Origin: Dehalococcoidia bacterium
GTDB taxonomy: Bacteria; Chloroflexota; Dehalococcoidia; DSTF01; JACRBR01
Length of the DNA stretch: 64,000 nucleotides
Direction of reading: 5' to 3'
Assembly: GCA_040902535.1 (NCBI GenBank)
Contig: JBBDXD010000006.1
Span: 104,497 to 168,496, forward strand
Shown here: positions 2,117 through 60,954 of the stretch, in pieces
Position numbering within the stretch: the first letter of the stretch is position 1
How the letters are laid out: every line of letters begins with the position of its first letter
Notes under the pieces: generated by a model
The model's database searches: none
The model's input: only the letters and a program-made list of their open reading frames with translations
Told to the model about the DNA's origin: nothing
Made by a program: the position numbers and the translations under genes

Positions 2117-3190
2117 GTGAACATCGGCGGCAACTTCTTCGAGGACCTGGGGCCGGGGCAATTGCTGCGCAATCCCGTGCCGCGCACGATCACGCCCGGC
2201 GATGTCGCGCTCTACATCGCGCTCACCGGTGATCGCAATCCGCTGTACTGCTCCGACACGTTCGCGCAGAGCCTCGGCTTTGAGCGTTCGCCGGTCGCCG
2301 ACCTGCTCGTATTTCACATCGTCTTCGGGCGCGCCGTTGGCGAGATCTCGCTCAACTCGCCCGGCAATCTCGGCTACGCGGACCTGCGCTTCGTGCGCCC
2401 CGTGTACACCGGCGACACGCTGCGCGCCGAGACGGAAACACTCGGCTGGCGCGAGACGTCGAAGGGCGACACCGGCGTCGTATGGGTGAAGACCGTCGGC
2501 TTCAATCAGCGCGACGAGGTCGTGCTTCAGTTCTATCGCTGGGTCATGGTGAACAAGCGTGATCCCGCCACCCCGACCAATGCCGATGACGCGCCCGAAA
2601 TGCCCGCCGAGGCATCACTCGATCACGTGAGCTTTCCCCGGATTGAACGCTTCGACGCGGTCGCCACGGGCAGCAGTGCAGCTTGGGAGGACTATGCGCC
2701 CGGTCAGCGCATCGCGCATCCGCAGGGCATGACGCTCGAAGAGACGGAGCATCAGCTCGCGACGCGGCTGTATCAGAACAGCGCGCGCGTGCACTTCAAC
2801 CAGCATCAGCAGAGCGCATCGCGCCACGGCCGGCGCATCGTCTACGGCGGCCACGTGATCTCCGTAGCGCACGCGCTGTCGTTCGACGGGTTAGAGAACG
2901 TGCTGGGCATGGCGGCGTGGAACGGCGGCTCGCACACGGCGCCGACCTTTGCCGGCGACACGCTGTTCGCCTGGACCGACGTGCTCGACCGCATCGACCT
3001 CGGCCGCGACGACATCGGCGCCCTGCGGCTGCGTCTGGTCGGCGTGAAGAACGTCGACCCATCGCGCGAGGACGTGCCGCTCCGCGTCAAGGACGACGCA
3101 GGCCGCGAGCGCTACGCGGAGCACGTCGTGCTGGATTTGGACTACGTCGCCCTGCTGCCGAAGAAACGGACTTTCGTTCCGTCATTCTGA
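2117..3190 (+). CDS. mch: Mesaconyl-CoA (2-methylfumaryl-CoA) hydratase
   Basis: MaoC/hot-dog-fold hydratase of 357 residues with two such domains (about 10-165 and 190-330). It hydrates mesaconyl-C1-CoA to beta-methylmalyl-CoA in the ethylmalonyl-CoA pathway and 3-hydroxypropionate cycle. Recognised from the family blocks NPLYCSD, FHIVFGRAVG, NLGYADLRF, GFNQ, RWVMVNKRDP, ATRLYQN, YGGHVIS, FAGDT and VLDLDY, which follow Mch order closely. GTG 2117 has GGAGGA 8 bases upstream; the frame stays open to 2027 but without a ribosome site. Its stop codon lies inside a dispersed repeat (3181-3207). The next two pathway steps are encoded by neighbouring genes. Confidence 0.9.
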   Translation: MNIGGNFFEDLGPGQLLRNPVPRTITPGDVALYIALTGDRNPLYCSDTFAQSLGFERSPVADLLVFHIVFGRAVGEISLNSPGNLGYADLRFVRPVYTGDTLRAETETLGWRETSKGDTGVVWVKTVGFNQRDEVVLQFYRWVMVNKRDPATPTNADDAPEMPAEASLDHVSFPRIERFDAVATGSSAAWEDYAPGQRIAHPQGMTLEETEHQLATRLYQNSARVHFNQHQQSASRHGRRIVYGGHVISVAHALSFDGLENVLGMAAWNGGSHTAPTFAGDTLFAWTDVLDRIDLGRDDIGALRLRLVGVKNVDPSREDVPLRVKDDAGRERYAEHVVLDLDYVALLPKKRTFVPSF

Positions 3191-3207
3191 GCGAAGCGAA
3201 GAATCTC
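3181..3207 (+). repeat. Dispersed repeat, left copy flanking broken GIY-YIG gene
   Basis: 27 bases beginning GTCATTCTGAGCGAAG and ending GAATCTC. The same repeat recurs inverted at 3589-3613, as a solo copy at 39299, in a cluster at 45996-46210 and inverted at 46566. This copy supplies the stop codon of mch. Confidence 0.9.
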
Positions 3208-3251
3208 GAATTCGCGCCGCAGACGGCGTGTAGCAGACGACTAGCGTGACC

Positions 3252-3561
3252 ATGAGACGATTTCACGTCTACATCATGACCAACCGACCGGGTGGGCGCC
3301 TGTACACAGGGGTGACAAACGGAATCGAGCGTCGTGTGTCCGAACACAAGCACAAGGCGACCTCGGGATTCACCGCCCGATATACCCTGGACAAGCTGGT
3401 ATTCGCGGAGGCCGCTGATAGCGCGATGGCGGCGATCCAGCGCGAGAAGGCAAATCAAGGGTTGGTTGCGGAGCAAGAAGATCGAACTGATCGAGTCGCT
3501 GAACCCCGGCTGGGAAGATCTTGCGAAGGACTGGTTCGCGGACGAGGGCGAAGGCCGGTGA
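3252..3561 (+). pseudogene. GIY-YIG nuclease-family small protein, frameshifted
   Basis: The N-terminal half reads as a GIY-YIG protein: FHVYIMTN, then LYTGVTN (the GIY and YIG strands), ERRVSEHK with the catalytic-type Arg, and SGFTARY. After about residue 66 the frame fails. In the frame one base over, the expected ending continues as QIKGWLRSKKIELIESLNPGW to a stop at 3561. One extra G near 3450 (in gagaaGGcaaatc) explains it. It is homologous along its length to the intact gene at 46224. It could be a real pseudogene or a sequencing error. It lies between inverted copies of the dispersed repeat. Confidence 0.8.
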
Positions 3562-3588
3562 CTCGTCGGCTCGTGCGCTTCACGACAG

Positions 3589-3613
3589 GATTCTTCGCTG
3601 CGCTCAGAATGAC
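3589..3613 (-). repeat. Dispersed repeat, inverted right copy
   Basis: 25 bases; its reverse complement begins GTCATTCTGAGCG and ends GAAGAATC, differing from the left copy (3181-3207) at one aligned base. With the left copy it bounds a segment of 433 bases that holds only the broken GIY-YIG gene. Confidence 0.85.
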
Positions 3614-39298: not shown

Positions 39299-39327
39299 GT
39301 CATTCAGAGCGAAGCGAAGAATCTCTC
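39299..39327 (+). repeat. Solo copy of the dispersed GTCATTC repeat
   Basis: About 29 bases starting GTCATTCAGAGCGAAGCG and ending GAATCTCTC. It lies alone between the polyprenyl synthase gene and pgk, with no inverted partner and no GIY-YIG gene nearby. Confidence 0.85.
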
Positions 39328-45987: not shown

Positions 45988-45995
45988 GCGCAGCC

Positions 45996-46210
45996 GTCAT
46001 TCCGAGCGAAGCGAAGGCAGCGTCATTCCGAACGAAGCGAAGAACAGCGTCATTCAGAGCGAAGCGAAGAATCTCTCTCGTGGTCGCCACGCATGAAGGC
46101 AATTCCTCGCGTACCCTCACGACGAACGCGCATCAGAGCGAAGCGAACAACAGCGTCATTCAGAGCGAAGCAAAACAGCGTCATTCAGAGCGAAGCGAAG
46201 AATCTCTCTC
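45996..46210 (+). repeat. Cluster of about six dispersed GTCATTC repeats
   Basis: Direct copies begin near 45996, 46022, 46049, 46131 (lacks the first bases), 46155 and 46180. Each is a variant of GTCATTCAGAGCGAAGCGAAG; the fuller ones end AATCTCTCTC. Spacing is irregular and intervening DNA is not unique spacers, so this is not CRISPR. Between the third and fourth copies (46070-46130) lies a degenerate copy of the 5' end of the GIY-YIG gene that follows. Confidence 0.9.
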
Positions 46211-46223
46211 CTGGTAGCCGCAA

Positions 46224-46595
46224 ATGAAGACATTCCATGTGTACATCATGACGAACGCCGCGCGTGGCACGCTCTACGTCGGTGTCACGAACGCGATCGC
46301 CCGACGCGTCGACGAACACAAGTCGAAGCGCTCACCCGGGTTCACGCGCCGCTACAACCTCTCCATGCTCGTCTACGCGGAGACGGCCGATGACGCGCTG
46401 TCGGCGATCGCCAGGGAGAAGCAGATCAAAGGTCTGAGCCGATCGAAGAAGATCGCGCTGATCGAAGCGGAGAATCCTGGCCGGGCTGATCTCGCCCATG
46501 ACTGGTTCGCTGGCGACGCTCATGGCGACGTCCGGCCAAAGCAGCGTATCCCGGCGCAGCCGCACGAGAGAGACTCTTCGCTTCGCTCTGATTGA
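46224..46595 (+). CDS. GIY-YIG nuclease-family protein, intact
   Basis: 123 residues, UPF0213/GIY-YIG type single-domain. FHVYIMTN and LYVGVTN are the GIY and YIG strands, followed by ARRVDEHKSKRSPGFTRRYN with catalytic-type Arg and the helix containing LVYAETAD; REKQIKGLSRSKKIALIE is the terminal region. The last residues (RDSSLRSD) are encoded by the inverted repeat, which also gives the stop. The ATG is 14 bases past the left repeat. It would nick or cut DNA. The target, possibly the repeat itself, is unknown. Confidence 0.88.
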   Translation: MKTFHVYIMTNAARGTLYVGVTNAIARRVDEHKSKRSPGFTRRYNLSMLVYAETADDALSAIAREKQIKGLSRSKKIALIEAENPGRADLAHDWFAGDAHGDVRPKQRIPAQPHERDSSLRSD

Positions 46596-46596
46596 C
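46566..46596 (-). repeat. Inverted copy of the dispersed repeat, right end of element
   Basis: Reverse complement begins GTCAATCAGAGCGAAGCG and ends GTCTCTCTC, matching the repeat at 46180-46209 with two changes. Contains the GIY-YIG stop codon. Confidence 0.85.
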
Positions 46597-50759: not shown

Positions 50760-52235
50760 ATGACGTCGCTGCCGCAGGTCAGACTCGATCCCGGCTCGCC
50801 CGAGCCTATGTACCGCCAGCTCTACGATGCCGTCCGCAAGGCGGTGCTCGACCGCACGCTGGCGCCCGGCACCCGCCTGCCCGCCACCCGCGAGCTGGCC
50901 CGCGACCTCGGCGTCGCGCGCAATACCGTCATGCTCGCCTTCGACCAGCTCATCGCCGAGGGCTACGTCGAAGGCCGCGTCGGCGCCGGCACCTACGTCA
51001 CCGATGCTCTGCCGGACGAACTCCTCTCGGCACGCACGCCATCTCGGAGCCCGCGGCGGCCGGCGGCTGGCCGTGCGCTCTCCGAACGCGGCCGCATGCT
51101 CTCGCGCACGCGCGTCACGCTGAACCCGCCCGACCAGCCCGAACGTCGCGCCTTCCGCATGGGCATGCCGGACTTCGCCGCCTTTCCCTTTCGTGAGTGG
51201 GCGCGTATTACTTCCAGGCTGTGGCGCGATCCGCCGCACGAGTTGTTGTTCTACGGCGACCCCGCCGGCTATGCGCCGCTACGCGCCCAGATCGCCGCCT
51301 ACGTTGGCGCCGCCCGCGCCGTCCAGTGCGATGTCTCACAGGTGATGGTCGTCGCCGGCTCGCAGCACGCGCTCGAGTTGGCCGCGCGCTTGCTCGTTGA
51401 TCCCGGCGATGCCGTTTGGATCGAAGACCCCGGCTATCTCGGCGCTCGCGCGGCGCTTCAGTCCAGCGGCGCCCGTCTCGTGCCCGTACCTGTCGATGAC
51501 GAAGGCATCGACGTCGAAGCCGGCATGCGCCGTTGCGCCGACGCTCGCGTCGCCTACGTCACGCCGTCGCATCAGTTTCCGCTCAGTGTCACCATGTCGC
51601 TCGGGCGACGCCTCGCACTGCTCGACTGGGCGGCACGCGCGAACGCATGGATTCTCGAGGACGACTTCGACAGCGAGTACCGCTACGCCGGGCGTCCCCT
51701 CGCCTCGCTACAGGGCCTCGACGGCTACGCGCGCGTCATCTACATCGGCACGTTCAGCAAGGTGATGTTCCCGTCGCTGCGCATCGGCTACATGGTCGTG
51801 CCACCGGACCTCGTCGATGCCTTCGTCGCCGCGCGCGCCATCGTCGACCGCCACCCGCCGCTCGTCGAGCAGGCGGCGCTCGCGCAGTTCATGGCGGAGG
51901 GGCACCTCGCGCGCCACATTCGCCGCATGCGCACGCTCTACGAGGAGCGTCAGCAGCAACTGCTCGAGGCGGGACGGCGCGAGTTGCGAGGCCTCATCGA
52001 CCTGCAGCCTGCCGACACAGGGATGCACGTCGTCGGCTGGCTGCCCCAGGGAGCCGACGATGCGGCGGTCTCGCGCGCGGCATCCGCCGGCGGCGTCGAC
52101 GCGCCGGCCCTCTCGCAATACTGCCTCGAAGCGAAGCTTCCGCCCGCCCTGACGCTCGGCTACTCCGGCTGCGACGAGCGCGCCATCCGCGATGGGGCCG
52201 CGACGCTCGCCCGCGTGCTCGCAGGCCGCCGGTGA
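50760..52235 (+). CDS. MocR-family transcription regulator (GntR HTH plus aminotransferase domain)
   Basis: 491 residues. N-terminal winged HTH (about 10-78): MYRQLYDAVRKAVLDRTLAPGTRLPATRELARDLGVARNTVMLAFDQL. A type I aminotransferase-like domain follows (about 125-485) with VVAGSQHALELAARLL, EDPGYLGARAAL, VTPSHQFPLSV, ILEDDFDSEYRY, and YIGTFSKVMFPSLRIGY, where the PLP Lys is in FSK. PLP or its vitamers act as the ligand in characterised members such as PdxR. It lies divergent from a PNPOx-like gene and 690 bases from a RidA gene, so it may control PLP-related functions. Confidence 0.9.
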   Translation: MTSLPQVRLDPGSPEPMYRQLYDAVRKAVLDRTLAPGTRLPATRELARDLGVARNTVMLAFDQLIAEGYVEGRVGAGTYVTDALPDELLSARTPSRSPRRPAAGRALSERGRMLSRTRVTLNPPDQPERRAFRMGMPDFAAFPFREWARITSRLWRDPPHELLFYGDPAGYAPLRAQIAAYVGAARAVQCDVSQVMVVAGSQHALELAARLLVDPGDAVWIEDPGYLGARAALQSSGARLVPVPVDDEGIDVEAGMRRCADARVAYVTPSHQFPLSVTMSLGRRLALLDWAARANAWILEDDFDSEYRYAGRPLASLQGLDGYARVIYIGTFSKVMFPSLRIGYMVVPPDLVDAFVAARAIVDRHPPLVEQAALAQFMAEGHLARHIRRMRTLYEERQQQLLEAGRRELRGLIDLQPADTGMHVVGWLPQGADDAAVSRAASAGGVDAPALSQYCLEAKLPPALTLGYSGCDERAIRDGAATLARVLAGRR

Positions 52236-60396: not shown

Positions 60397-60954
60397 CTAG
60401 CTAAACGGCGTGATGAAACCGATCTGCGGAGCATCGAGGTCGACGCACGCCCAGCCGGGCATCGGCATGGTCCGCCATGCCTCGTACGGATCCTCCAGCC
60501 CGATGGTCCGCGCGAGCCACGCCGTCAGCACGCGTCCATGCGAGACGACTGCGGCCGGGAACTCACCCTGGCTGACCAGCGCGACGCCGGCGGCGAAGCG
60601 GTGCGCAGCCTGCGCGGCGCGCTCCGCCCCTCTCGGCGCACCCGCTCCGTCTTCCAGGACCGCCCGCACGGCGTCGTTGAACTCATCGGCATTGCCGATC
60701 CAGTCCGGCATCCGCAACTCGTCGAAGCCGTCGACGACGTTTGCAACGAGTCCGAGCGCGTCTGCGATGATCAGGCCCGTGTTGCGCGCCTTCGCTTCGC
60801 TGCTCGTGTAGATCGCCTCCAGCTCCCACGTATGCGCGAGCTTCGCAAGCGCCCGCGCTTCTTCAATGCCACGCTCCGACAGCGGCCAATCGCGGGGCGC
60901 GCTTTCCGGTTGGACCACCGGAGATGCGTGTCGAATGAGAAACAGCTGGCGCAT
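60397..60954 (-). CDS. Histidine phosphatase (phosphoglycerate mutase-like)
   Basis: 185 residues. LFLIRHASPV is the RHG-type catalytic loop (here RHAS); WPLSERGIEEARALA, AIYTSSEAKARNTGLIIADAL and VVSHGRVLTAWLA, with the second His, complete the family. It probably hydrolyses a phosphomonoester such as alpha-ribazole phosphate or another sugar phosphate. It lies 2 bases downstream of the membrane protein gene at 60957, so is cotranscribed with it. Confidence 0.85.
   Translation of the reverse strand: MRQLFLIRHASPVVQPESAPRDWPLSERGIEEARALAKLAHTWELEAIYTSSEAKARNTGLIIADALGLVANVVDGFDELRMPDWIGNADEFNDAVRAVLEDGAGAPRGAERAAQAAHRFAAGVALVSQGEFPAAVVSHGRVLTAWLARTIGLEDPYEAWRTMPMPGWACVDLDAPQIGFITPFS

Follow-up and report, generated by a model that had tools for sequence, protein, structure and literature searches.

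A GIY-YIG nuclease gene enclosed by inverted CGTC-type REP hairpins as a candidate minimal mobile element in a Dehalococcoidia bacterium

The locus described here lies in a window of 64,000 nucleotides of DNA from a Dehalococcoidia bacterium. It holds an intact gene for a small protein consisting of a single GIY-YIG domain (Table 1). The amino acids characteristic of GIY-YIG enzymes show no or almost no variation across 22 relatives. Searches with NCBIfam and PHROGs gave weak GIY-YIG-type matches only, and PADLOC gave no match on the locus. The gene is enclosed by two inverted copies of a dispersed hairpin repeat (REP). The arms (46180–46213 and 46563–46596) are 34 nt long and 91% complementary, with three mismatches, and the TGA stop codon of the gene (46593–46595) falls inside the right arm. 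A preliminary description of this DNA had placed the gene between inverted repeats of about 30 bases with two mismatches, and its stop codon inside the right repeat. Both points are confirmed, two being the number of mismatches in the 24-nt core. Between the REPs we found only GIY-YIG and no HUH Y1 transposase.

Further REP copies are clustered to the left of the intact element, where an apparent decayed gene start is also seen (TCACGACGAACGC beside TCATGACGAACGC). A second element has the same architecture around a broken GIY-YIG gene at 3181–3613, as had been noted before; its arms measure 25 nt and are 96% complementary, and the reading frame is broken near 3442–3473. The solo repeat at 39299 and the repeat cluster, both reported earlier, were found as well, and the cluster copies (about 45996–46204) are direct. 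Within the window, the sole other 14-base inverted pair spaced 200–700 bases apart lies at 51480–51840.

Table 1. Coordinates of the two REP-bounded elements and the solo repeat in the window, and of insertions at the sufB–sufC junction in other organisms
Feature	Position	Strand	Basis or remarks
Left terminal REP, intact element	46179–46213	+	CGTC tag 46179–46182, hairpin 46183–46203; 34-nt arm 91% complementary to right arm
Intact GIY-YIG endonuclease gene (Ssn-like), 123 aa	46224–46595	+	ORF; Pfam PF01541, E 5.6e–14; invariant family residues in 22 relatives
Right terminal REP, inverted, TGTC tag; holds the gene's stop codon	46563–46597	–	
Direct REP copies clustered left of the element, with decayed 5' gene fragment	45995–46178	+	Direct repeat families D1–D4
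Left REP, second element	3180–3205	+	
Frameshifted GIY-YIG remnant	3252–3561	+	tblastn matches in two reading frames, with 59% and 65% identity to the intact copy
Right REP, second element, inverted	3589–3613	–	25 nt, 96% complementary to left arm (3181–3205)
Solo REP	39299–39323	+	Exact match to core pattern
sufB–sufC insertions	L066:2357–2975; L083:940–1460; L084:956–1441		

The core of the repeat, TCATTCNGAGCGNAGCGAAGAATC, matches seven times in the window, versus 0.00 matches expected, and 100 times in the 3.18-Mb genome to which the window belongs (G000), versus none for a reversed control pattern. When the 100 genome copies were considered as neighbour pairs at most 600 bases apart, 44 of 46 pairs were direct and 2 of 46 inverted. 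Both inverted pairs are the ones that enclose the two GIY-YIG genes of the window. In this genome, neighbouring REPs are inverted only where they enclose the gene. Direct neighbours are often about 71 bases apart and form tandem arrays. Solo repeats have a sharp left edge between CG and TC (CG/TCAT) and, on the other side, a tail that fades over roughly 40–60 bases, and therefore possess a real polarity. Nearest-neighbour calculations with standard DNA parameters give a weak hairpin for the REP of the window itself, and for this reason we relied on covariation to assess the stem. One stem pair is T-A in 19 distinct copies, G-C in 5 and C-G in 4 within the genome, and the covariation score was reached by none of 500 shuffles. 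The stem is kept by compensatory change.

Some tandem arrays are built of other units. At G000:C5:47200–47900 (L188), the REP is repeated together with about the first 25 codons of the GIY-YIG gene in units of 178 bases; at G011:C8:17200–18450 (L189), the 3' end of the gene is repeated with the REP in units of 201 bases. A second REP variant, GATGCTTCGCGTGCGCTCAGGATGACGG, forms a 73-base tandem array adjoining copies of the main type (L032:1501–1911, G000:C15 about 60502–60912).

We looked for the same association of gene and repeat in other bacteria by taking 300 bases on either side of each gene and scoring the best inverted repeat shared by these flanks, with shifted positions in the same loci as controls. 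Of 73 named loci with a relative of the gene, drawn from more than 20 phyla, 44 had inverted flanks scoring at least 16, versus 4 of 959 control positions (P-value = 6e–53). The pairing recurs in most phyla of the sample. The preliminary description proposed to test whether GIY-YIG genes of this clade border inverted repeats far more often than other genes do, and the count, taken against other positions, is in its favour. About a quarter to 40% of the relatives have no clear inverted pair. Inverted REP flanks are present at 13 of 15 loci from plasmid-collection records (Neisseria, Azospirillum, Sinorhizobium, Shinella, Sphingobium and others), although some of these records are chromosomes filed as plasmids and some of the relatives are near-identical. 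Within the window's class only, the association is weaker at threshold 16 (8 of 19 genes versus 2 of 105 controls) and clear at threshold 13 (15 of 19 versus 4 of 105). No inverted flanking pair was found for four YhbQ-like GIY-YIG genes (L059–L062), while one outlying relative (L064) does have inverted flanks. In a tree, the window protein groups apart from YhbQ-like and UvrC proteins with low support. On a Planktothrix agardhii plasmid (L067), a GIY-YIG relative with 59% identity to the window protein has a type IIL restriction gene on one side and the DISARM gene drmA on the other.

Across loci the arms mostly start with GTC and fold as a hairpin with a variable stem, which places them in the CGTC REP super-family described by Di Nocera et al. 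(2013). The similarity of the repeats tracks that of the proteins (52 loci, Mantel r = 0.35, reached in 0 of 5000 permutations), a correlation that includes any contribution of shared host ancestry. That gene and repeat are genuinely associated across bacteria is, in our judgement, practically certain, and the REP is quite likely the target of the enzyme.

The two components also come and go together. In the window's family, the genomes with the gene (G000, G002, G003 and G005) carry 100, 18, 54 and 21 repeat copies, respectively, and those without it (G001, G004, G006 and G007) carry 0, 1, 0 and 0, that is, co-occurrence in four of four and co-absence in four of four. At the first window locus the neighbouring genes are kept without gene or repeat in G006 and G007, and at the second in G001, G004, G006 and G007. 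Both window copies are insertions relative to related genomes. The preliminary description proposed to compare loci with and without the element, and the outcome is in its favour: the empty sites of both loci lack gene and repeats together. A joint insertion is very probable. No target-site duplication was seen, but the flanking intergenic DNA, both in the window's relatives and in Azospirillum, has diverged too far for one to be read. For the whole class the relationship is weaker than in the family: at least three repeat copies are present in 16 of 24 gene-positive genomes versus 9 of 36 gene-negative ones (P-value = 0.003). Hence, repeats can exist without a detected gene.

Filled and empty sites occur in other organisms as well. 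A. lipoferum 4B has the gene at its sufB–sufC junction, flanked on either side by REP pairs, and the same site is without the gene in A. ramasamyi, A. oryzae and Azospirillum sp. B510. The sufB–sufC junction has been entered separately in three organisms, by a REP-bounded GIY-YIG gene in Azospirillum and Shinella and by a DUF559 gene in Sphingomonas. On Sphingobium plasmids a REP-gene-REP unit lies between fnrL and a response-regulator gene, where relatives carry a single REP with the same outer ends. The ends of the element are therefore tied to the CGTC tags. Judged by the conserved target expected of a homing endonuclease, the solo REP of Sphingobium at the filled site fits the REP as target; the empty sites of the window hold no REP.

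The orientation of the repeats was compared with local GC skew, which is a proxy only for the replicating strand, with one vote per repeat cluster. The GTCATTC strand lies on the C-rich strand in 45 of 50 clusters in G000, 32 of 35 in G003 and 41 of 45 in G023 (118 of 130 pooled over the three genomes, P-value = 6e–23). Four unrelated motifs used as a control agree with GC skew in just 44–61% of cases, and the repeat's own skew is opposite in sense to the observed bias. The strand of the neighbouring gene has no effect on repeat orientation (P-value = 1.0 in each of three genomes). In most bacteria the leading strand is G-rich; if this is so here, the GATTCT..GAATGAC strand would be the lagging-strand template. 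In N. gonorrhoeae the neighbouring dRS3-like copies listed stand in inverted pairs, and the orientation test is therefore unusable there; Filomicrobium offers two repeat copies only. We found no report of a replication-strand bias for these repeats in the literature searched, which was a limited check. A related pattern has been glimpsed before in P. fluorescens SBW25, where tandem REP arrays are oppositely oriented on opposite sides of the genome (PMC3116915).

The independence of gene strand bears on the possibility that the repeats act as RNA terminators or stabilise mRNA as hairpins, bracketing small genes by chance. The hairpin structure and the mostly intergenic location (63 of 73 copies) would suit a function of this kind. 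However, a terminator or RNA role is disfavoured because orientation ignores gene strand; moreover, such pairs are missing at control positions shifted along the same loci, and an Rfam search of the locus gave no match. We consider this explanation very improbable indeed.

The strand bias itself might arise in two ways: single-strand insertion coupled to the replication fork, of the IS200/IS605 type, would give it, and so would selection for a polar site. In the latter case the REPs would serve the host as functional polar sites, like Chi, KOPS or uptake sequences, for the processing of single-stranded DNA in replication, repair or uptake; selection would keep their orientation, and the gene would spread by ordinary recombination between REPs. 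Polar functional sites likewise show a fixed orientation by replication strand, and the Neisseria homologue, which is reported to modulate transformation, can be counted on the same side. This explanation is at odds with the joint absence of repeats and gene from close relatives, with the decay and patchy distribution of the gene copies, and with the amplification of gene fragments together with the REP in tandem arrays. We regard it as unlikely, albeit one to be taken seriously, and rather favour a single-strand, replication-coupled spread of the repeats.

As to what moves the repeats, another enzyme (Y1/RAYT or an IS200-type transposase) could be responsible, the GIY-YIG gene being a passenger caught between two REPs. 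The hairpins and the strand bias of the REPs resemble those of HUH systems, and two Y1 matches were found in G000. Y1 is also present in G006 and G007, but both are without repeats, and the genome's only inverted pairs enclose this one gene family. No Y1 match was found in G003, G023 and G044, which are rich in repeats (54, 57 and 31 copies, respectively), and a Y1/RAYT transposase acting in trans was for this reason rejected as the general driver. We consider the passenger explanation improbable; the GIY-YIG enzyme is the best candidate for the mover.

We suggest, with moderate confidence, that the locus is a minimal REP-nuclease element, in which an Ssn-like GIY-YIG gene has a CGTC-type REP hairpin on each side, the two being inverted relative to each other and their tags pointing outward. 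The enzyme would recognise and nick its own REP when the latter is present as folded single-stranded DNA, which is most probably the case at replication forks. Re-synthesis or repair from the nick might then place REP copies at new sites, for the most part singly or in direct arrays, and two inverted REPs acting together could allow the gene to move as a unit. The preliminary description had compared the system to REP/RAYT pairs and had let the nuclease drive the spread of the repeat. The analogy holds well; the driving role may or may not apply, and we give it an even chance. G023 speaks against it, having 57 repeat copies in strong replication orientation with GIY-YIG and Y1 genes both undetected: either the genome bin misses the gene or the repeats outlast it.

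The window protein has a homologue in N. gonorrhoeae (43% identical, 94% coverage) that lies among dRS3-like hairpins, 165 copies of which occur in that organism, and that we take to be a member of the Ssn single-strand nuclease family. This family was reportedly named by Chenal et al. in Nature Communications in 2025, and is said to cut single-stranded repeats (NTS, in Neisseria) site-specifically. The pairing of gene and repeat is probably already known as Ssn. Both systems have a one-domain GIY-YIG protein and a dispersed hairpin repeat matched to the gene; however, the repeats stand in inverted pairs in Neisseria, whereas in the window's genome they are solos or direct arrays with an orientation set by the replication strand.

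According to Di Nocera, De Gregorio and Rocco (2013, PMC3733652), CGTC-tagged REPs form a super-family that includes Neisseria dRS3, occur mostly as head-to-head dimers ending in CCA and lack a dedicated transposase. The window repeat resembles them in the CGTC (or TGTC) tag at one end, the A/T at the start of the stem, and the dispersed, intergenic location. It differs in its tail, which is TCT and not CCA, in its copies, which are mostly solo or direct (44 direct versus 2 inverted) and not head-to-head, and in that a dedicated enzyme candidate exists here, unlike what is stated in that survey. With REP/RAYT and REPINs (PMC3116915, PMC6006769) the element has in common an enzyme gene flanked by inverted REPs, single-strand hairpins and dispersed non-autonomous copies, but it has GIY-YIG instead of HUH/Y1 and a CGTC instead of a GTAG tag. 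IS200/IS605 elements (PMC6006769) are similar in their hairpin ends and their coupling to the lagging strand of replication; the window element, in contrast, has no Y1 transposase, and its gene lies between two copies of a single hairpin in inverted orientation. By every testable feature except the tail and the dimer arrangement, the element belongs with the Ssn/CGTC-REP pairing and not with RAYT. As far as we checked, what is new is the restriction of inverted REP pairs to the gene, the paired empty sites and the orientation relative to replication.

A parallel was noticed for DUF559 (PF04480) nuclease genes, which are flanked by inverted palindromes CCCCTCTCC..GGAGAGGGG at 16 of 24 loci versus 6 of 168 control positions (L302–L325, in genomes of relatives). 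Inspection shows the inverted palindromes in the Sphingomonas DUF559 locus (L084:960–1440) too; there they escaped the automatic scoring owing to the bounds set for the gene. We found no report of DUF559 with inverted repeats in the literature searched, and this looks like a second REP-nuclease pairing.

Overall, we tentatively propose, while leaning slightly to the doubtful side, that CGTC-type REPs and GIY-YIG genes make up a bacteria-wide class of single-stranded, fork-coupled mobile elements, parallel to REP/RAYT with an unrelated enzyme and with solo REPs as non-autonomous members; DUF559 nucleases and CCCCTCTCC-type palindromes may make up a second, parallel class. The type of repeat goes with the type of protein, so that the sequence next to the gene of such a nuclease reveals the likely target of the enzyme; tools for single-strand DNA would benefit from this. 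Hairpin repeats of the CGTC type occur dispersed in numerous bacterial genomes, and no enzyme was assigned to them in the 2013 survey. The association with the gene, the empty sites and the strand orientation now give them a candidate enzyme and a testable route of spread.
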